NCBI RefSeq assembly: GCF_022899355.1
Contig: NZ_JALJCK010000001.1
Coordinates: 596,346 to 660,345, forward strand
Direction of reading: 5' to 3'
Length of the DNA: 64,000 bases
From: Shinella yambaruensis
GTDB taxonomy: Bacteria; Pseudomonadota; Alphaproteobacteria; Rhizobiales; Rhizobiaceae
Shown here: positions 18,018 through 29,906 of the stretch, in pieces
How positions within the stretch are numbered: the stretch's first letter is position 1
Layout: every line of letters begins with the position of its first letter
Notes under the pieces: generated by a model
What the model saw: only the letters and a program-made list of their open reading frames with translations
Database searches by the model: none
Told to the model about the DNA's origin: nothing
Made by a program: the position numbers and the translations under genes

Positions 18018-18308
18018 TTTTCCCCAAAAGTTCAAGTTTTCCAGCGATTTCAACGCTTTTCGTGCGGGGAGCCGTCTTTCCCGGGCTTTCGCGCACGGCC
18101 TGTGCGCTCATTCTTGCAAGCCGCGCCTTCCCGTCAAGAGATCGCGGAGAATTGTCCTGCGGCACGTCAGATTCGGTTTGCAATCAGAGCCCGAGCCACT
18201 AGTTGACTTGAGAAAGAGCGGATTTGCGCCGATCTGCCGGCAAATCGGGCAGGACACCGCGCCATCCCGCGGATGGATTCGGGATTTTAGGCATATGAGG
18301 TGTTTTGC

Positions 18309-20075
18309 TTGAGCGGCAAGGTTGCGGCGGGGCAGCGTTTTGGCAACGAAACCGACGAGCGCCCGGCGGCATCCCGGGCGTTTTTGCGCCGGCTTCGGCT
18401 GTGGACGGGCCTGACCCTTTTTCTCTACGCGACGATGCACCTCCTCAACCAGGCTTTCGGCATCCGCTCCATCGAGGCGATGGAAATGGCGAGCCGGGTG
18501 CTTTTCCAGCCGTGGCAGAGCCTGCCGGGACGGGTGCTGCTTTACGGCGGGCTCGCCGTTCACGCGGCGCTCGGGCTGCGCGCGCTCTATCGGCGGCGGC
18601 ACCTGCGGCTGCCCGCGGTCGATGCCGTGCAACTGGCCTTCGGCCTCGCCATCCCGGCCGTGCTCTTCGCCCATGCCGGGGCGATCGCCTATCTGAAGGG
18701 CGTCTACGGCGCGCGAATCGATTTCGACAAGACCGTCTACGCGCTCTGGGTCGCCAGCCCCGAGGTCGGCCTGCCCCGCCAGTTCCTGCTGATCATCGTC
18801 GTGTGGATCCACGGCTGCATCGGCGTGCGCGCCTGGCTGCGCGGCAAATCCTGGTATCCGCGATCCGTGCCCATCCTGATGTCGCTCGCCACCCTGCTGC
18901 CGGTGCTGGCGGTGCTCGGCTTCATCAATGCGGGCCTCGACATGCGCGACATTGCCGCCCAGGGCGCGGAAGCCCTGCGGCCCGGCCTGCATGACCTGCC
19001 GGGTTCACCCGCCGCGGCCGCAGCCGCCGAGGCCAATGCCATCGCAAACCGCTTCACCATGGGCTATCTCGCCCTGCTTGCCGGCATCTTCATCCTGCGA
19101 ATGGCGCGCGACTGGCACGCCACGCGGTTCGATTCGGTCCGGATCACCTATCCCGGCGGCCGCGTCGTTTCCGTTCCCGTCGGTTTCAGCGTGCTGGAGG
19201 CGAGCCGCTGGTCGGCCATTCCGCATGCCTCCGTCTGCGGCGGCCGGGGCCGGTGCTCGACCTGTCGCGTCGAGATTACCGCCGGCGGCGAAACGCTGCC
19301 GGCCCCGGCGGGCGACGAGCAGCGCCTCCTGCGGCGCATCGGGGCACCGCCACCGGTGCGGCTCGCCTGCCAGATCCGGCCGGAACGCGACATCGCCGTC
19401 GTGCCGCTCGTGCACTCGACCACCGCGGCCCAGCTGCCGAAGGGCCGGTTCGGCCCGGTGACGGCCGCCCGCCGGGAGGCGGAGGTGGCGGCGCTCTTCG
19501 TCGACCTGCGCCAATCCACGCGCCTTGCCGACGATCGCCTGCCCTACGACACCTTCTTCATCGTCGAACGCTACATCAAGGCCGTCTCCTCCGCGGTGCG
19601 GGCGAGCGGCGGCCATGTCACGAACATTGCCGGCGACGGCGTCATGAGCGTCTTCGGCACCGACGGGCCGACGCATGATGCCGCGCGCGATGCCTTTCGC
19701 GCCGCGCTGCGGCTGTGGGAGGGGATCGACGCCCTGAACGAGGAGCTGCGGCAGGAACTGAACGAGCCGCTGCGCATCGGGATCGGCCTGCATGTCGGGG
19801 TTGCGGTCGTCGGCACGGAGTGGACGGGCGGCCTCGAAGGCATGCCTTTCCTCGGCGATACCGGCAATGTCGCCGCGCGGCTGGAGGCCCAGACCAAGCA
19901 GCTGGGCGCGACGCTGATCGCCTCGAAGGAGGCGGTCCTGATGGCGGCGGGCGAACCGCACGCCTTCACCTTCGTCCCCGTGATGCTGGCCGGGAAGCAG
20001 GACCCGATAGAGGTCCTGTGCTTTCGCGACAGCGAGGTGCTTCGCCAGCTCGTCGGCGCCGCCGTTTCCGGGTGA
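18309..20075 (+). CDS. Membrane-anchored 2Fe-2S ferredoxin / class III nucleotide cyclase fusion (CyaC-like)
   Basis: Three parts are visible. Residues about 30-260 form six hydrophobic helices of the succinate-dehydrogenase-anchor type with several His (ATMHLLNQ, LAVHAALG, LFAHAGAI, VVWIHGCIG) suited to bind haem. Residues about 270-370 are a ferredoxin domain with CGGRGRCSTC and a fourth Cys in LACQI. Residues about 395-560 are a class III cyclase with metal aspartates in LFVDLRQST and AGDGVMSVFG. The layout matches CyaC of Sinorhizobium meliloti, a redox-controlled adenylate cyclase (known). The usual substrate-specifying Lys is Asn here (VTNIAGD) and the second position is Pro, so substrate is uncertain. 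I chose TTG at 18309, six bases after AGGTG; GTG at 18300 is in frame but abuts the AGG. Confidence 0.88.
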   Translation: MSGKVAAGQRFGNETDERPAASRAFLRRLRLWTGLTLFLYATMHLLNQAFGIRSIEAMEMASRVLFQPWQSLPGRVLLYGGLAVHAALGLRALYRRRHLRLPAVDAVQLAFGLAIPAVLFAHAGAIAYLKGVYGARIDFDKTVYALWVASPEVGLPRQFLLIIVVWIHGCIGVRAWLRGKSWYPRSVPILMSLATLLPVLAVLGFINAGLDMRDIAAQGAEALRPGLHDLPGSPAAAAAAEANAIANRFTMGYLALLAGIFILRMARDWHATRFDSVRITYPGGRVVSVPVGFSVLEASRWSAIPHASVCGGRGRCSTCRVEITAGGETLPAPAGDEQRLLRRIGAPPPVRLACQIRPERDIAVVPLVHSTTAAQLPKGRFGPVTAARREAEVAALFVDLRQSTRLADDRLPYDTFFIVERYIKAVSSAVRASGGHVTNIAGDGVMSVFGTDGPTHDAARDAFRAALRLWEGIDALNEELRQELNEPLRIGIGLHVGVAVVGTEWTGGLEGMPFLGDTGNVAARLEAQTKQLGATLIASKEAVLMAAGEPHAFTFVPVMLAGKQDPIEVLCFRDSEVLRQLVGAAVSG

Positions 20076-20736: not shown

Positions 20737-21969
20737 CTACAGGATGAAATCCGTCGCCTTCAGGCTGAGGCTGGTGTCGAGCAGGATGGAGAAGTCGGCC
20801 TTTCCGTCGCCATTGACATCCGCATGGATGATCGTGTCGCCGTTCTTCTTCTCGTAGCGCAGTTCACCCGCCTTCTTGTGGAAGGAATCGGTGCCGATGA
20901 ACGTGAAAGCCTGGTCGCCGGCGGACTTCGTGTTCGCGTCCATCGCCTTGAGATCGATCTTGTCCTTCTGGGCGCGGCTGAAATCCGCGATCGTGTCGCG
21001 GCCGGACGTCGAAGCGGTCGAATCCCGGACCGAGGCGAAGACGAAGACATCGGCGCCGGAGCCGCCATGGAGACTGTCGGCACCGGTGCCGCCGCTGATC
21101 CGGTCGTTGCCCGCCTCCCCCATCAGCTTGTCCTTGCCGGCGCTGCCGCTGATCGTGTCGTTGCCGGTGCCGCCCAGCACATAGTCGGCGCCGGCGCCGG
21201 CATAGATCCGGTCATTGCCGCCATTGCCGAAGATCAGGTTGTCGCCGGACGTGCCCTTCAACATGTCGGCGCCGGCCTCGCCGAAGAAGTCGCCGGGGCT
21301 CCATTTTCCCTCGCCGTAGATCTTCTTCAGGATGGCATAGGCCTTCGGGTCGTATTTCGCGAGCTCGGTGCGGGTGTTGATCTCGTTGTGGATGCCGTCC
21401 GCGCCCTCCCGCTCGGGATTGTCGTTGAAATAGGCCTGGCTCAGCTCCGCGAAATATTCGTCGAGCGTGTCGTCCGCATAGGTGTTCTTCCAAAGACCGG
21501 TGCGCTTGGCATTTTCATAGACGGCGGAGAAAGACTCCATCAGCCCCTTGTCGACCGTCGATACGCCGAGATTGTCGATGGCGTGCGCCCATTCGTGCAG
21601 CGCGATGCTCTCGCTGCCGCCATAGGGGTCGGTCGGGTAGTTGAGCAGGTTCTCCTCGCCGGACGACGAGGTCGGCCGCCCCGGCACGGCCCCCAGCCCC
21701 CGATAGATATCCCAGGACGCACCGAGGTCGGAATAATCCGGCAGTTCGGTGATCTTGGTGCCTTCCGGGATGATGGCGAAGCGGCCGCCGGCATCGACGA
21801 TCGCGGACACGTATTTTCCAGCCCCGGCGATGGAATTGAAGATGATCTCCGCAGCCCGGTAGACCGCCTCGTCGGGAATGGCGTCGTTGGCGAGGATATA
21901 GATCCCCTTCCACTCGAACGCCTTGGTATGAAAGCCTCGTGCATAGTCCGACGGTGGCTTCTTCAGCAT
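20737..21969 (-). CDS. RTX-tailed zinc metalloprotease, anthrax lethal factor-like
   Basis: Predicted extracellular protease exported by a type I secretion system (inferred; none in this window). The N-terminal ~215 residues carry a zinc motif ALHEWAHAID near residue 125 and a downstream acidic motif DEYFAELSQAYFND near 170, the HExxH plus E arrangement of the M34/ATLF (anthrax lethal factor) family. Residues about 235-320 hold roughly seven RTX nonapeptides of the form GGxGxDxL, binding calcium. The C-terminal ~90 residues resemble the M10-type secretion domain (FADFSRAQ-like DTIADFSRAQKDKIDL, ending SLKATDFIL). There is no N-terminal signal peptide, as expected for type I export. The ribosome site GGGGGAG lies 8 bases before the ATG. 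The substrate is unknown. Confidence 0.85.
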   Translation of the reverse strand: MLKKPPSDYARGFHTKAFEWKGIYILANDAIPDEAVYRAAEIIFNSIAGAGKYVSAIVDAGGRFAIIPEGTKITELPDYSDLGASWDIYRGLGAVPGRPTSSSGEENLLNYPTDPYGGSESIALHEWAHAIDNLGVSTVDKGLMESFSAVYENAKRTGLWKNTYADDTLDEYFAELSQAYFNDNPEREGADGIHNEINTRTELAKYDPKAYAILKKIYGEGKWSPGDFFGEAGADMLKGTSGDNLIFGNGGNDRIYAGAGADYVLGGTGNDTISGSAGKDKLMGEAGNDRISGGTGADSLHGGSGADVFVFASVRDSTASTSGRDTIADFSRAQKDKIDLKAMDANTKSAGDQAFTFIGTDSFHKKAGELRYEKKNGDTIIHADVNGDGKADFSILLDTSLSLKATDFIL

Positions 21970-22115: not shown

Positions 22116-22658
22116 CTAGCGCGTCGCGAGCAGCGCGACATAGGCGACGACCGTCAGCAGCAGGCCGCGGAAGGCGAAGCCGACGAAGCGGTACTTGTCG
22201 CGGGCGATCGAGGCCATGGCGTCGGCATTCTGCATGTACTGTTCGAAGAGGTAGCCGACGTCACGCTCGTGCGCCGCCGTGCGGAACCCCTCGCGGTGAT
22301 GCGGCCAGGCGCCCCAGAACAGCGAGGTCGCCTTGTCGACCCGGCGCGGCAGCACGACGAGGATGGCCGAGACGATGGAGAAGATCAGCGCGAAGGCGAG
22401 CAGGCCGGAAAAGGCGATCGCCGTCGGGTTGCCCTCCGCATAGCGCGCCCAGGTGAAGACGGCGCGGCTCTCGGTGGAGGTGACCAGCAGTGCGAGCATG
22501 AAGGTGAAGATATAGGCGGCCTTCTGGTCGGAGATCTTCACCTGGTCGTAGAAGACGTCGTTGATGCGGCGGATATGGTCGAAATGCTCCAGCGCGATGC
22601 CCTGCGTGCCATCGAGGGCCTGCCCGAGAATGGTCTGCCGCGTTTCCAAAGCCGTCAT
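22116..22658 (-). CDS. PycTM / DUF5706-type two-helix membrane protein
   Basis: The 180-residue product has two hydrophobic helices (about 48-65, IFTFMLALLVT; and about 82-105, GLLAFALIFSIVSAILVVLP), a soluble loop, and a C-terminal hydrophobic segment (FRGLLLTVVAYVALL). It shows the pattern of Pycsar effector family PF18967: ISDQKAAYIFTF before helix 1, LPRR after helix 2, LFWGAW, then YMQNADAMASIARDKYRFV before the last helix. In Pycsar, PycTM disrupts the membrane when it senses a cyclic pyrimidine nucleotide (known). Here it is divergent from a CHASE2 nucleotide cyclase 183 bases away. Family assignment is from remembered patterns; whether it acts in defence is unproven. Confidence 0.75.
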   Translation of the reverse strand: MTALETRQTILGQALDGTQGIALEHFDHIRRINDVFYDQVKISDQKAAYIFTFMLALLVTSTESRAVFTWARYAEGNPTAIAFSGLLAFALIFSIVSAILVVLPRRVDKATSLFWGAWPHHREGFRTAAHERDVGYLFEQYMQNADAMASIARDKYRFVGFAFRGLLLTVVAYVALLATR

Positions 22659-22841
22659 GTCGCTTCCGTCCCTCCTGCGCCCGCCTCGTGATAGCCGAGT
22701 GCCTTCGGAAAGCAACGGCCTGCCCTCGGCACCGCTTGACTTTTTCGGGGGGATGTCGAGTTCTGGTTGCATGCTGAACCTCATCCCGCCGCCCGGCCCG
22801 CCGACCTTTCCTGCCCTGCGGCGCGCCGCCCGGAGCGGTGC

Positions 22842-24800
22842 ATGAGCACAACGCCGCGCCTTCCCCACCGCTGGTCGCGCCGCACCCGCCGGCTTGCCGT
22901 GCTCGCCCTTGCCGTCGTCGTGCTCGTCTCGGCCCTCACGCAGCTTCCGGCCTGGTCGCTCGCGGATCTGCGCGCCTTCGACTATCTTTCCACCGTCGAC
23001 GATCCGCGCCCGCCGGTCGATGGCCCGGTGGTCGTCGCGATCGACGAGCCGTCGCTGGCGGAAATCAATGCGCAATGGCCCTGGCCGCGCGAACTGCATG
23101 GCCGGCTGGTGGAAAGCCTGCGCAAGGCCGGCGCCACGGCGATCGGCCTCGACATCATCTTCGCCGAACCCTCCAACCCGGCCTCCGATGCGGCCTTTGC
23201 CGCAACGCTCGGGCCGGATGTCGTTCTGGCCGGCGACGAGAGCGTCATCGTCACGCCGCAGGCCGAGCAGCTTCTGCGCACGACGCCGCTGCCGGCGTTC
23301 ACCGCGGCGGGCGCGGTGACGGGCATCGCCTCGATCACGCTCGGCGGCGACGGCGTCTTTCGCGACCTGCCGCGCTATGAGGACGGCTTTGCGCGCGCCC
23401 TCGCCCGCATCGCGGGCAAGCCCGCGGTCTCGCCCGAGGGCAAGCTGCTGCAATCCTTCGGCCCCGCGCGCAGCTATCCGACGGTCTCCTATTACCAGGC
23501 GCTCGATCCGGAGAACATGCTGCCGAAGGATACGTTCAAGGGCCGCGTGGTGATCGTCGGCCTCAGCCTGCAGAATGCGCCCGTCATCAATTCCGGCGGC
23601 GCGGACGCCTTCGCCACGCCCTACACGGTCCATACCGGCCGGCTGGTGGCGGGAGCGGAAATCCAGGCGACGATCCTCGACAATCTCACCGCCGGCGCCG
23701 CGATCACCCGGGCCGGCACGCCGCTGGCCATCGCCGCCGTCGCCCTCGCCGCCCTGGTTTCGGCGGCGATCGTGCGCCGCGCGACGCGCTGGCAGACGGC
23801 CGTGCTCGGCATCCTTGCAAGCGCCATGCTCGGCCTTCTCAGCTTCGCGCTGATCCGCGAGGCCAGGCTCTTCGTCTCGCCCATCGGCCCCACCATCGCG
23901 CTTCTCCTGGTCGCGGCCGGCCAGACGGCGCTCGATTATGCGGAGGAGCGGCGCCGGCGCCGCGCGATCGTGCGCGCCTTCTCGCAATATCTCTCGCCCG
24001 CCCTCGTCGAGCGCCTCGCGCGCGATCCTTCGCAACTGAAGCTCGGCGGCGAGCGGCGCACGCTCTCCATCCTGTTTTGCGACGTGCGCGGCTTCACCAC
24101 CATCGCCGAGACGATGAAGGACGACCCGGAGCAGCTGACGACGCTGATCAACCGGCTGCTGACGCCGCTCTCCGATATCGTGCTCAAGCACGGCGGCACG
24201 ATCGACAAATATATCGGCGACTGCGTGATGGCCTTCTGGAACGCACCGCTCGACGACGGGGACCATGCCCGCCATGCGGTGGCCGCCGCGCTCGACATGC
24301 TCGACGTGATGGCGACGCTGAATGCAAAGCTCCAGGCGGAGGCGGCGGCCAGCGGCGGCACCCACCATGCGCTGCGCATCGGCATCGGCATCAACACGGG
24401 CGAATGCGTGGTCGGCAACATGGGATCCTCGCGGCGCTTCGACTATTCGGTGCTCGGCGATGCGGTGAACCTTGCCTCGCGCCTCGAAGGCGCTTCCAAG
24501 GCCTATGGCGTGCCGCTGCTCATCGGCGAAAGCACGGCGCAGTTGACGGCGACGGATTTCGCCGTGCTCGAACTCGACCGCATCACGGTCAAGGGCCGCA
24601 CCGGCGCGGCCCCGGTCTTCACCGCCGTCCGCAGCCTGCCGGAAGAGGCGAAGGCGCTGCACGCCCTGTTCGTCGAGGCCAAGTATGCCGGACGCCTCGC
24701 CGCCGATGACAGGGCCTTCGATGCGCTGGTCGAGATCGCTCCGGCGCTGGCCCCCTATTACGCGACAGTCCGGTCCGGACATGCGGCCGGCGGCGCGTAG
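22842..24800 (+). CDS. CHASE2 sensor / class III nucleotide cyclase
   Basis: Membrane receptor cyclase of 652 residues. After one membrane helix (about 20-40) comes an extracytoplasmic CHASE2 domain (about 45-300; LRAFDYLSTVDDPRPP, VVVAIDEPSLAEI, WPWPRELHG), then three more helices (about 308-380) and a cytoplasmic class III catalytic domain (about 410-590). Metal-binding aspartates are in LFCDVRGFTTIAE and YIGDCVMAFW, the substrate Lys in TIDKYIGD, and transition-state Asn/Arg in VNLASRLEG. The second specificity position is Ser (YSVLGD). The Lys favours adenine, so cAMP is the default prediction. I start at ATG 22842, with GGAG 7 bases upstream. It is divergent from the PycTM-type gene. Confidence 0.93.
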   Translation: MSTTPRLPHRWSRRTRRLAVLALAVVVLVSALTQLPAWSLADLRAFDYLSTVDDPRPPVDGPVVVAIDEPSLAEINAQWPWPRELHGRLVESLRKAGATAIGLDIIFAEPSNPASDAAFAATLGPDVVLAGDESVIVTPQAEQLLRTTPLPAFTAAGAVTGIASITLGGDGVFRDLPRYEDGFARALARIAGKPAVSPEGKLLQSFGPARSYPTVSYYQALDPENMLPKDTFKGRVVIVGLSLQNAPVINSGGADAFATPYTVHTGRLVAGAEIQATILDNLTAGAAITRAGTPLAIAAVALAALVSAAIVRRATRWQTAVLGILASAMLGLLSFALIREARLFVSPIGPTIALLLVAAGQTALDYAEERRRRRAIVRAFSQYLSPALVERLARDPSQLKLGGERRTLSILFCDVRGFTTIAETMKDDPEQLTTLINRLLTPLSDIVLKHGGTIDKYIGDCVMAFWNAPLDDGDHARHAVAAALDMLDVMATLNAKLQAEAAASGGTHHALRIGIGINTGECVVGNMGSSRRFDYSVLGDAVNLASRLEGASKAYGVPLLIGESTAQLTATDFAVLELDRITVKGRTGAAPVFTAVRSLPEEAKALHALFVEAKYAGRLAADDRAFDALVEIAPALAPYYATVRSGHAAGGA

Positions 24801-24803
24801 GTC

Positions 24804-25613
24804 CTACGCGCCCTGCTTGGGATGCGAGGGGGCGAACTCGGCGACGAGCTCGTGTTTTTCACCGGGATAGGTCAGCCGTACATGGGTGACGTAGAGGCCG
24901 CCGCTCCAGGTGCGGCGCTCGACGACGAGGCAGGGCGTTCCGGGCGCGATCGCCAGAAGCCCGGCGGCCCGGGCATCGGCACCGACGGCACGGATGCGGT
25001 GTTCGGCGGCACTCCAGGGCACGCGGCTGATCAGCCAGGCGCCGGGCGCGGTTTCGTCGAAGCTCTCGTCGACGGCTTCCGGCACGGCTTCCAGGTTGAT
25101 CAGGCGGTCCTCCAGGCAGAACGGCTGGGCACCGGCAAAATGCAGGGCGGAAATCTCGGTCAGCCGGGCCGATTCGGAAAGCTCCATCAGCCGCCGGTCG
25201 CCAGCCTTCGCAGCGCGGTTTACCCGCGTGCGCCGCTCGTAGCGATACGGCAGGCCGAGCGATTCGACCTCCAGGCGGATGTCGTGGATTTCGAGAACCG
25301 CCGACTGGGCGTGCGGGTGGGTGACATAGCTGCCGGACTTGCGCCGGCGCTCGATCAGGCCGCGCTTGACCAGCTCGGTGATCGCCTTGTTCACCGTCAT
25401 GCGCGAGCACTGGTACTGCTCGGTCAGTTCGTGCTCGAAGGGAATGCGGTGGCCCGGCGGCCATTCGCCCGAAAGGATCCTGCCCTCCACATCCTCCAGG
25501 ATGCGGCGGTGCAGCGACGGCTCCTTGGCCTCGGCCTGCCTGTTGTCCCCGAGAGTGAAAATGGTCGCCTCCGCGCTTGCCGGGCACAAATTCGCCCGGT
25601 CCGGAAAAGTCAT
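24804..25613 (-). CDS. hutC: Histidine utilisation repressor, GntR/HutC family
   Basis: Transcriptional repressor of the hut genes; in the family urocanate is the inducer. The N-terminal winged helix-turn-helix spans about residues 33-95 (LTEQYQCSRMTVNKAITELV, then GSYV). The C-terminal UTRA effector domain follows (CLEDRLINLEAVPE, LVVERRTW, HVRLTYPGEKHELVAEF). The only ordinary start gives 269 residues with a ~25-residue N-terminal extension relative to typical HutC, and has no obvious ribosome site. It follows hutF by 31 bases, so the repressor is in an operon it probably controls through the site at 27063-27074. Confidence 0.93.
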   Translation of the reverse strand: MTFPDRANLCPASAEATIFTLGDNRQAEAKEPSLHRRILEDVEGRILSGEWPPGHRIPFEHELTEQYQCSRMTVNKAITELVKRGLIERRRKSGSYVTHPHAQSAVLEIHDIRLEVESLGLPYRYERRTRVNRAAKAGDRRLMELSESARLTEISALHFAGAQPFCLEDRLINLEAVPEAVDESFDETAPGAWLISRVPWSAAEHRIRAVGADARAAGLLAIAPGTPCLVVERRTWSGGLYVTHVRLTYPGEKHELVAEFAPSHPKQGA

Positions 25614-25644
25614 AGGAAAGGCGGGGCCACCTTTCAATACGTCC

Positions 25645-26991
25645 TCAGGCCTCGGCCAATGCCCGCATGGTGGCCGTGAAGCGCCGGCCGACCGCCTCGC
25701 GCGCCACATGGCGACCGCCCTCGACCTGCCGGCGGCCATTCACCCAGACGCAATCGACCTTAGCGCCATTGGCGAAGATCCAGCCGTCGAGCAACGCGTC
25801 GCCGGCAAGGTCAAGGTCGTGCCGGGCCTTCAGGCTGACGAAATCGGCGGGGCTGCCGGCCGAAAGGCCCGATTCGACGCCGAGCGCCGCCGCGCCGCCA
25901 AGAAGCGCGCCGTCGAAGAGCGCCCGGCCCGTCGAGCCCCCGGGGGCGGCGAGCACGTTGCGGGCGCGGTGGGCGAGACGCTGCGAATATTCGAGCTGGC
26001 GCAGCTCGTCCGGCAGGCCGATCAGCACGTTGGAATCCGAGCCGACGCCGAAACGGCCGCCATGGGCAAGAAAGTCCGGCGCCGGGAAGGTTCCGTCGCC
26101 GAGATTGGCCTCCGTCACCGGGCAGAGGCCGGCGATCGCCCCGGCCTTCGCCATGCCGCGCGTCTCGGCCTCCGTCATGTGCGTCGCGTGGATGAAGCAC
26201 CAGCGGCCGTCGACCGCCTGGTTGTCGAGCAGCCATTCCACCGGACGACGGCCGGACCAGGCGATGCTGTCCTCCACTTCCTTGACCTGCTCGGAAATAT
26301 GGATGTGGACCGGCGCGTCGCCCGCCATCGCCACGACGTCGGAAAGCTCCTCCGGGGTGACGGCGCGCAGGCTGTGCGGGGCAACGCCGGTGATGCCGGC
26401 GGGCAGCGCATCGGTCAGCGCGCGGCAGCGCTCCAGCAATGCGGCATAGGACTGCCGGTCGTTGATGAAGCGGCGCTGGCCCTCGCCCGGCGCGGTGCCG
26501 CCGAAGCCGGCATGGGCGTAGAAGACGGGCAGCAGCGTCAGCGCGATGCCTGTCTTGGACGCCGCGGCGGCGATGCGCGCGGCCATCTCGGCGATATCGG
26601 CATAGTGCCCGCCGTCCTTGTCGTGGTGCAGGTAGTGGAACTCGCCGACGCGGGTGAAGCCCGCCTCCAGCATCTCGACATAGAGCTGGCCGGCAACGGC
26701 CTCCACATCGTCGGGCGTCATGGACAGCGCGAAGCGGTACATAACGTTGCGCCAGCTCCAGAACGAGTCGCTCCCCGGCCCGCGGGTTTCCGCCAGCCCC
26801 GCCATGCCGCGCTGGAAGGCGTGGCTGTGCAGGTTGGGCATGCCGGCGACGACGGTGTCGTGGCGCTCGTCGCCAGGCGCCGGCGCGGCGCCGGTTTCGA
26901 GCGTCGCGATGCGGCCGTCCGCGATGTCTATACGCACATCCTTCGCCCAGCCGCCCGTAAGCAGCGCCTGCCTTGCATGAATGACGGCCAT
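25645..26991 (-). CDS. hutF: Formimidoylglutamate deiminase
   Basis: Converts N-formimino-L-glutamate to N-formyl-L-glutamate and ammonia, the first step of the two-step end of the pathway, completed by HutG. Amidohydrolase fold: metal-binding [12 protein letters not shown] near residue 53, VAPHSLRAV near 200, HIHISEQ near 228, and the Asp in [10 protein letters not shown] near 320. I start at [10 protein letters not shown] (26991), with AAGGA 7 bases upstream; the frame is open 23 codons further. 448 residues, normal length. Confidence 0.95.
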
Positions 26992-27044
26992 GGCCCGTTC
27001 CTTCTCCCGATGGTACATCCTGGCGCCGCGCCGGCAAATTGGCT

Positions 27045-27073
27045 CTTGCGCCTCTCGCAATTATGTATATACA
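27045..27073 (+). promoter_or_regulatory. Candidate hutI promoter overlapping the HutC site
   Basis: CTTGCG (27045-27050), 17-base spacer, TATACA (27068-27073). The -10 element lies inside the palindromic operator, so repressor bound there would block RNA polymerase. Confidence 0.45.
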
Positions 27074-27074
27074 T
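27063..27074. promoter_or_regulatory. Palindromic operator, probable HutC site
   Basis: ATGTATATACAT is a perfect 12-base palindrome in the divergent promoter between hutF and hutI. HutC sites in other bacteria contain a TGTATATACA-like core (known). Repressor here could control both arms of the cluster, including hutC itself. Confidence 0.7.
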
Positions 27075-27104
27075 TATATCCATCACAGGGAAGAGGCAAT
27101 CACC

Positions 27105-28328
27105 ATGACGACACCGGAAAAGGACAGTCCCCGAGTCTGGCGCAATGCCCGGCTTGCGACGCTGAAGGAGAGCCTGCCGGACCTCGGCATCATCGAGAAC
27201 GGCGCGATCGCCGTCCGCGACGGACGCATCGCCTTTGCCGGCCCCGAGGCCGATCTTCCCGCCGAATTCTCCGCCGCTGAGACCATCGACTGCGAAGGCC
27301 GCTGGATCACGCCGGGCCTCATCGACTGCCATACCCATCTCGTCCATGCCGGCGACCGCGCCCAGGAATTCGAGCTGCGCCTTGACGGCGCCTCCTATGA
27401 GGAGATCGCGCGGGCCGGCGGCGGCATCGTCTCCTCCGTCAAGGCGCTGCGCGCCGCAAGCGAGGACGAGCTGGTGCGCCAGACCCTACCCCGCCTCGAC
27501 GCGCTGATCGCCGAGGGCGTGACGACGGTCGAACTGAAATCCGGCTACGGCCTCGACACCGAGAACGAGGTGAAATCCCTGCGCGCCGCGCGGCGCATCG
27601 CGGAGATGAGGGACGTCACCGTGCGCACCACCTTCCTCGGCGCCCATGCGCTGCCGCCGGAAATGAACGGCGACAAGGCGGCCTATATCGACAAGGTCAT
27701 CGGTGAGATGCTGCCGGCCGTCGCGGCCGAGGGGCTTGCCGATGCCGTCGACGGTTTCTGCGAGGGCATCGCCTTCTCGCCGGAAGAAATGGCCAGGGTC
27801 TTCGACGCCGCCAAGGCGCACGGCCTGCCCGTGAAACTGCATGCCGACCAGCTTTCCAACCTCCACGGCGCGGAAATGGCTGCCCGCTATGGCGCGCTGT
27901 CGGCCGACCACCTCGAATATACCGATGATGCGGGCGCGGCGGCCATGGCCAGGGCCGGCACCGTCGCCGTTATCCTGCCCGGCGCCTTCTACTTCATCCG
28001 CGAGACGAAGAAGCCGCCGGTCGATCTCTTCCGCAAGCACGGCGTCAGGATGGCCGTCGCGACGGACGCCAATCCCGGCACCTCGCCACTCACCTCGCTG
28101 CTCCTCACCATGAACATGGCCGCGACCCTCTTCGGCATGACTGTTACGGAATGCATTGCCGGCACGACGCGCGAGGCCGCCCGTGCCCTCGGCCTCGTCG
28201 ACGAGGTGGGAACGCTCGAAGCCGGGAAATGGGCCGATTTCGTCCTCTGGGACATCGGCCGGCCGGCGGAACTGGTCTACCGCATGGGCTTCAACCCCAT
28301 GCATGCCCGTATCCGCAGCGGACACTGA
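27105..28328 (+). CDS. hutI: Imidazolonepropionase
   Basis: Opens the ring of 4-imidazolone-5-propionate to give N-formimino-L-glutamate, the third step of histidine breakdown. It is an amidohydrolase of 407 residues with the metal motif [10 protein letters not shown] near residue 74, LKSGYGLD near 145, KLHADQLS near 245 and the Asp in ATDANPGTS near 320. I start at MTTPEKDSP, preceded by AGAGG at 8 bases; an earlier in-frame ATG at 27039 would lie upstream of the promoter elements. Confidence 0.96.
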
Positions 28329-28370
28329 TCCATCCAGTAAGCAGCACAGCGCTGCATCGGGGAATGCACC

Positions 28371-29906
28371 ATGACGATCATGCTCCATCCGGGCTCCGTG
28401 CCCCTCAAGACCCTTGAAACCATCTACTGGACCGGCGAGGCCGCCAAGCTCGACGCCTCCTTCGACGCCGGAATTGAGAAGGCCGCCGCGCGCATCGCAC
28501 AAATCGCCGGCGGCGACGAGCCGGTCTACGGCATCAATACCGGCTTCGGCAAACTCGCTTCCATCAAGATCGCGCCGGCCGACGTCGCGACCCTCCAGCG
28601 CAACCTGATCCTGTCGCATTGCTGCGGCGTCGGCAAACCGCTTGCCGAGAACATCGTGCGCCTCATCATGGCGCTGAAGCTAATCTCGCTCGGGCGCGGC
28701 GCGTCCGGCGTGCGCATCGAGGTCGTGCGCCTCATCGAGGCGATGCAGGCAAAGGGCGTCATCCCGGTCATCCCGGAACAGGGCTCCGTCGGCGCCTCCG
28801 GCGACCTCGCCCCCCTCGCCCACATGACGGCGGTGATGATCGGCGAAGGCGAGGCCTTTCATGCCGGCGAGCGCCTTTCCGGCGGCAAGGCGCTGGAAAA
28901 GGCGGGCCTGAAGCCCGTCGTCCTCGCCGCCAAGGAGGGGCTTGCCCTCATCAACGGCACGCAGGTCTCGACCGCCCTGGCGCTCGCCGGCCTCTTCCGC
29001 GCCCATCGCGCCGCCCAGGCCGCCCTCGTCACCGGGGCGCTTTCCACCGACGCGGCCATGGGTTCCTCCGCGCCGTTCCATCCGGATATCCACACGCTGC
29101 GCGGCCACAAGGGCCAGATCGACGCCGCTTCCGCGCTGCGCGCGCTGCTTGCCGGCTCCGTCATCCGCGAAAGCCACATCACCGGCGACGAGCGCGTGCA
29201 GGATCCCTATTGCATCCGCTGCCAGCCGCAGGTCGACGGCGCCTGCCTCGATCTGCTGCGTGCCGCCGCCCGGACGCTCGAAATCGAAGCCAATGCCGTC
29301 ACCGACAACCCGCTGGTCCTCTCCGACGACAGCGTCGTCTCGGGCGGCAACTTCCATGCCGAGCCCGTCGCCTTCGCCGCCGACCAGATCGCCATCGCGG
29401 CCTGCGAGATCGGCGCCATCGCCCAGCGCCGCATCGCGCTCCTGGTCGATCCCGCCCTCTCCTTCGGCCTGCCGGCCTTCCTCGCCAAGAAGCCGGGCCT
29501 CAATTCCGGCCTGATGATCGCGGAGGTCACCTCGGCCGCGCTGATGAGCGAGAACAAGCAGATGGCGCATCCGGCCTCGGTCGATTCGACGCCGACCTCC
29601 GCCAACCAGGAAGACCACGTCTCCATGGCCTGCCACGGCGCCCGTCGCCTCCTGCGCATGACGGAGAACCTCTCCGCCATCATCGGCATCGAGGCGCTGA
29701 CGGCCGCTCAAGGCATCGAGTTCCGCGCCCCGCTCGTCACCAGCCCGGAGCTGCAGAAGGTCGTCGCCGCGCTGCGCACGGTCGTCGCGACGCTGGAAGA
29801 GGACCGCTACATGGCGCATGACCTTGCCGCCGCCAGCACCTTCGTCTCCTCCGGCGCGCTCGCCGCCTCCGTCACCAAGGGCATCCTGCCGGTTCTGGAG
29901 GCTTGA
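28371..29906 (+). CDS. hutH: Histidine ammonia-lyase
   Basis: Deaminates L-histidine to urocanate, the first step. The 511-residue product carries the Ala-Ser-Gly triad at residues 142-144 ([14 protein letters not shown]) that cyclises to the MIO electrophile. It also has [10 protein letters not shown] near 53 with the catalytic Tyr, [11 protein letters not shown] near 283, and the [10 protein letters not shown](V) region near 400. It lies 42 bases after hutI and is separated from hutG by a repeat-filled gap. Confidence 0.97.

Follow-up and report, generated by a model that had tools for sequence, protein, structure and literature searches.

The small membrane protein encoded at 22116-22658 (minus strand) of the analysed DNA very probably belongs to the CyaK signalling module, and we lean towards a role for it as a membrane output or modulator that serves CyaK signalling without killing the cell, rather than in abortive infection. 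The window, by which we mean the whole stretch of 64,000 nt that was analysed, comes from Shinella yambaruensis (NZ_JALJCK010000001.1, positions 596,346 to 660,345). Within it, the gene of this 180-aa PycTM-family protein (PF18967; DUF5706 in some records) is divergent from the gene of a CHASE2 receptor-type class III adenylate cyclase of 652 aa (22842-24800, plus strand), which is a CyaK orthologue by domain content and orthology. The original prediction had seen in the two genes a possible Pycsar-like signalling pair. They are, however, no two-gene variant of Pycsar: relatives mostly have a conserved CyaK signalling locus of three genes, for the PycTM-like protein, a FecR-TPR protein and the cyclase, of which the window carries a reduced form. 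Neither the third gene nor the CyaK identity could have been read from the letters of the window. The locus thus suggests that a defence-type membrane protein was taken into an ordinary sensing pathway.

The predicted membership of the small protein in PF18967 was borne out by a profile HMM search, in which residues 75-166 matched at 44.5 bits, above the curated Pfam cut-off of 27.2, and a profile search of the 6.87 Mb Shinella genome returned this protein as the sole match (46 bits, E 3.6e-11). PADLOC likewise matched it to PycTM at 44 bits. Three hydrophobic regions were found, with the best 19-residue windows lying in residues 42-68, 85-103 and 159-177, and a confident AlphaFold model (mean pLDDT 85.6, pTM 0.71) contains long helices at residues 23-60, 78-102 and 134-179 besides shorter ones. 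Hence the two-helix layout that had been proposed for the protein is too simple. Core residues were compared between the window protein and three PF18967 groups of 41, 8 and 5 rows, one row being incomplete; D44 (or E), K46, T52, P104, R105, K155 and Y156 (or F) were common to all of them with few exceptions, and the corresponding [DE]xK, PR and K[YF] residues are therefore shared by PycTM-like proteins and Pycsar-linked effectors in all three groups. Pfam recognised no cyclic-nucleotide-binding domain in the protein, and at E 1e-5 a search of 50,697 phage records gave no relative. Among the 80 loci listed of 177 found in named genomes, the closest relatives were from Shinella, with 94, 94 and 83% identity, and dN/dS of the small gene against three Shinella relatives was 0.08-0.17, indicating purifying selection.

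A tree of PF18967 grouped the proteins that resemble that of the window (P0001-like, P0001 being the window's PycTM-like protein), from all three bacterial families in which they were found, across one branch from the Pycsar-linked proteins, with one Pycsar-linked row placed in the third group. The support of this branch is moderate (88/94) and its bootstrap is unsettled; all rows used for the tree are stop-free and some of them are very long.

The cyclase carries a CHASE2 domain (129.6 bits, residues 26-297) and a Guanylate_cyc domain (84.3 bits, residues 407-587) in Pfam, in line with the CHASE2 sensor on a class III cyclase that had been read from the DNA. It is 65% identical to the cyclase on pSymB of Sinorhizobium meliloti, and the solved structure nearest to its cyclase domain is that of CyaB (3r5g). 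Over its first 230 codons dN/dS was 0.11-0.19 against three Shinella relatives, which is purifying selection of similar strength to that on the small gene. The substrate lysine is present in the motif IDKYIGD, and a lysine of this adenylate type occurred in 8/8 aligned CyaK-type cyclases vs 0/11 cyclases from Pycsar-type loci; a nearby Ser/Thr is usual in the CyaK-type rows, and at least one Pycsar-type row has it too. As had been suggested earlier, the lysine speaks for ATP as the probable substrate of CyaK and hence for cAMP as its product, as far as residues can tell; its absence elsewhere proves little. In the same alignment the adenylate-type lysine is also missing from a CyaC-like cyclase of the window, and S. 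meliloti CyaC is described as making cAMP in the available part of PMC10463352. Thus, a cyclase that lacks the lysine need not use pyrimidine nucleotides.

Between the two genes lies a divergent intergenic region of 183 bases (22659-22841), as claimed, and it holds no core Clr box. Across 122 such stretches, 117 of them different, the distance between match ends was 99-374 bases, and Clr boxes were not in excess in the promoter region that the two genes share (6/122 stretches vs 5.3 in shuffles). These counts give no sign of co-regulation by cAMP-Clr.

The genome holds four class III cyclases (PF00211, E 0.001), two of them within ~3 kb of the PycTM-like gene. The second of these is the CyaC-like protein just mentioned (18300-20075, plus strand), which combines an extended N-terminal part with a 2Fe-2S ferredoxin domain and is similar to CyaC, the redox-sensing cyclase of S. 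meliloti; two named Shinella genomes, too, have a second, weak cyclase match close to the PycTM-like locus. The gene at 20737-21969 (minus strand), between those of the two cyclases, encodes a protein that has RTX calcium-binding repeats and ends in a C-terminus of serralysin type; its match to a metalloprotease-type domain fell below the cut-off. On the other side, a GntR/UTRA regulator is followed by histidine-degradation-like genes (HutF, HutI-like, aromatic amino acid lyase) at 24804-29906, all by Pfam.

We then considered whether the locus could work as a Pycsar-like antiphage system, in which contact of a phage with the cell surface would cause the membrane cyclase to make cAMP and the PycTM-like protein would kill or stall the cell. 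Several observations agree with such a system: the PycTM-family core residues are kept, PADLOC recognises the small protein as PycTM and the cyclase as PycC (best 95.7 bits), the CyaC-like cyclase nearby also matches PycC models, and a FecR-TPR protein, which is probably located in the outer membrane, is linked in relatives. The PycC match of the CHASE2 cyclase is confined to the catalytic domain, namely residues 402-550 of 652, whereas four cyclases from three Pycsar-type loci matched PycC models nearly over their full length at 262 to 776 bits. Moreover, Pycsar-type loci in the same bacterial family differ from the window locus. Besides the window, 57 places with PF18967 were examined in that family, 44 of them P0001-like and 13 others. 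Eight of the 13 loci without a P0001-like match had cyclase ORFs on the effector strand; the remaining five, which make up the third group, had no cyclase in the stretch searched. The Pycsar-type loci were co-directional in 8/8 cases vs divergent arrangement in 40/40 linked P0001-like loci of the family. Two Pycsar-type loci combine two different cyclases with one PycTM on one strand, and both cyclases of one of them match PycC models.

The surroundings of the window pair bear on the same question. Ten neighbouring proteins had no PADLOC match at E 1e-5, and the eleventh, the CyaC-like cyclase, matched PycC models via its cyclase domain (best 56.3 bits). Together with the lack of relatives in the phage records, this agrees with the earlier suggestion that the locus serves sensing and is not part of a defence island. 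When the window was held against the hallmarks of Pycsar, the cyclase was found to have the adenylate-type lysine where a cyclase for cCMP or cUMP would be expected, a judgement from residues only; its PycC match was not full-length; and cyclase and effector were not in a one-strand operon. Thus, the core residues common to all groups make the protein a member of the PycTM family, yet its locus lacks the Pycsar features that were tested. A further argument comes from S. meliloti, in which, in the available part of PMC5498481, constitutive cAMP is reported to have given the wild type a smaller swim radius that was not due to reduced growth. Strain 1021 carries the small gene with an open frame, and the growth kept under constitutive cAMP makes a lethal pore unlikely, although local cAMP or low expression could mask an effect in this species. 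Taken together, we regard an antiphage function of the locus as very unlikely.

The ties of the small gene to the cyclase were followed in 247 genomes of the family Rhizobiaceae. PF18967 occurs in 56 of them and P0001-like genes in 46 (E 1e-5). CyaK orthologues, searched with the window cyclase, were set off by a clear score gap (>600 bits vs <300 bits for the next matches) and occur in 59. CyaK was held by 44/46 genomes with a P0001-like gene vs 15/201 others (Fisher p 2.9e-33, a value that takes no account of phylogeny, many of the compared genomes being close relatives). In the other direction, 15 of the 59 CyaK genomes, one of them a Shinella, have no PycTM-like gene, and the gene is thus accessory. 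The dependence runs one way, from the small protein to the cyclase locus, which is what an accessory output would show.

PycTM-like and CyaK genes were linked, at most 4.2 kb apart, in 40/46 genomes of the family, window included, so that the survey upheld the claim that the two are neighbours more often than by chance. All 40 linked loci are divergent, with 172 to 4,123 bases between matches. A full CHASE2 cyclase lies near 39 of the 44 P0001-like places; the remainder are one locus cut by a contig end, where only the beginning of the FecR-TPR gene is left, and four unlinked ones on uncut contigs, three of them in genomes that hold FecR-TPR and cyclase genes elsewhere and one in a genome without CyaK. 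One further genome, also without CyaK, carries close to the end of a contig a PycTM-like copy that is divided between two frames. The FecR-TPR protein, of ~1,200 aa, is encoded between the PycTM-like and cyclase genes and in line with the cyclase in 37/40 linked loci. Its relatives (E 1e-20) occur in the same 59 genomes as CyaK, some of them distant and away from cyaK. The window genome has such a relative elsewhere (38% identity) and none adjoining the window cyclase. In one genome a decayed PycTM-like remnant sits next to the FecR-TPR gene, where the intact gene is usually found, and in three genomes of one genus PdxA-like ORFs, as flank the S. meliloti locus, lie beside the locus without a PycTM-like match, the PdxA identity being a reading of their first residues rather than the result of a family search.

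Named genomes gave the same picture. Of 80 loci listed among the 177 found, 73 carry both partners, and five, all from Shinella, have the cyclase directly adjacent without a FecR-TPR gene; one locus breaks off where the cyclase begins, and another lacks both partners, although an isolate of the same name also carries a complete locus. A full cyclase is alongside in 78 of these 80 listed loci, always divergent, and with three plasmid loci, which carry both partners, 81/81 linked named loci are divergent. Some genomes are common to the family set and the named set, and the two sets are therefore not independent. In the wider order, 12/297 genomes matched the P0001-like profile at E 1e-10, seven of them from two other families; six of the seven are linked, two divergently and four on one strand, and one is unlinked. 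In one of these families all three genes are on one strand in 4/5 genomes, with a gap of ~4 kb. In the class-wide search no match was found among 289 genomes beyond the window's own.

These data also bear on whether the genes are mere bystanders, side by side only through common descent and a common promoter region and functionally unconnected. The close relationship of many of the compared genomes and the shortness of the intergenic region are what such an origin would give. Linkage is, however, found in two arrangements and three families, and its persistence when the gene arrangement differs speaks against a common promoter as the sole cause; it is kept without the middle gene in Shinella and also on the pSymB megaplasmid of S. 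meliloti, and the presence of the small gene depends one-way on CyaK. A bystander relationship is therefore very improbable.

A functional tie might also take the form of a structural or regulatory partnership, with the PycTM-like protein serving as brake, assembly factor or scaffold of CyaK or of an NsrA-type protein and having no effector activity of its own. Its linkage to both partners, be it divergent or co-directional, would fit this, as would the lack of a recognised ligand domain; and in the window and five named loci the Shinella gene stays beside CyaK without an NsrA-type gene. Against a partner of this kind, the 15/59 CyaK genomes that do without the PycTM-like gene imply that the cyclase does not need it there, and the core residues of Pycsar-linked effectors are kept. 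We consider this partnership rather unlikely, and continue with the preferred reading, in which the small protein acts at the membrane, as a non-lethal output of CyaK signalling or as its modulator.

For such a module S. meliloti provides the framework. The annotation of pSymB of strain ml47 lists cyaK, a FecR-domain protein and a DUF5706 protein, and the same three genes are present on pSymB of strain 1021. CyaK is SMb20776 according to the available part of PMC5498481. The gene order makes SMb20774 the probable PycTM-like gene. In S. meliloti, where CyaK senses a host signal together with NsrA, signal 1 is described as requiring the outer-membrane protein NsrA and CyaK, with the ribosomal protein uL2 proposed as this signal (PMC7529298, available part), and NsrA is described as a predicted beta-barrel in what is available of PMC10463352. 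From its position and its barrel-like C-terminus, we infer that the FecR-TPR protein is NsrA. An orthologue of Clr is encoded in the window genome (366.9 bits to 7pza, the structure of Clr; PMC10127613). It lies on another contig ~2 kb from another class III cyclase, resembling clr-cyaD1 of S. meliloti.

The module would thus comprise, in most of the relatives examined, an NsrA-type protein (FecR, TPR and barrel-like C-terminus), CyaK in the inner membrane and the PycTM-family protein, also in the inner membrane. A signal from outside would arrive at the CHASE2 domain, by way of NsrA in S. meliloti; in Shinella, the NsrA relative may be encoded elsewhere, or none may be needed. CyaK would then make cAMP, which Clr would read for transcription, and the PycTM-like protein would act as an accessory output or a local membrane modulator. 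It might be switched by cAMP made nearby or by contact with CyaK, and the switched protein may reversibly change membrane permeability or transport without killing the cell. A more specific version, which we put forward tentatively and think possible rather than probable, is that the proteins of the P0001-like clade are cAMP receptors in addition to Clr, namely membrane effectors gated by a purine cyclic nucleotide that CyaK makes locally on a host or outside protein signal. If true, a defence-type pore would now serve symbiotic or environmental sensing as a reversible output.

In the openly readable literature, judged by titles, abstract openings and excerpts, no study came up that links the PycTM family with CyaK. 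One relative is annotated as a "Pycsar system effector family protein" in the public record, and its neighbours are FecR-TPR and cyclase genes. The family name PycTM should hence not be taken as proof of a defence role. In the available part of PMC11224242, PycTM is presented as a defence effector that disrupts membranes, and CyaK-cAMP-Clr cascades are called incompletely understood in the available part of PMC10463352. A PycTM-family clade that depends one-way on a receptor adenylate cyclase is genetically tractable in a model symbiont, where a possible role of such proteins in ordinary signalling can be approached.

Compared with the Pycsar antiphage system (PycC and PycTM), the window locus is alike in having a PF18967 membrane protein with the core residues beside a class III cyclase. 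It differs in that its cyclase has the adenylate-type lysine and is a membrane receptor instead of a soluble enzyme, in that the genes are divergent instead of co-directional within the window's family, in the third gene, encoding the FecR-TPR protein, and in the defence context, none of which was found. CHASE2-FecR clusters are already known from Campylobacterota (PMC9239204, available part). They likewise contain FecR and TPR proteins, whereas their fourth gene encodes a phosphodiesterase, and no PycTM-family protein is named in that part of the description. The NsrA-CyaK-Clr pathway, which serves autoregulation of infection in S. meliloti, differs in that a divergent PycTM-family gene is absent from its description as far as this is available, and the cyaK gene of Shinella (window and 5/5 named Shinella loci listed) has no adjoining FecR-TPR gene. 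The CHASE2 cyclase is orthologous in both, a FecR-TPR gene lies beside cyaK in the relatives that have the full locus, and a Clr orthologue is present.
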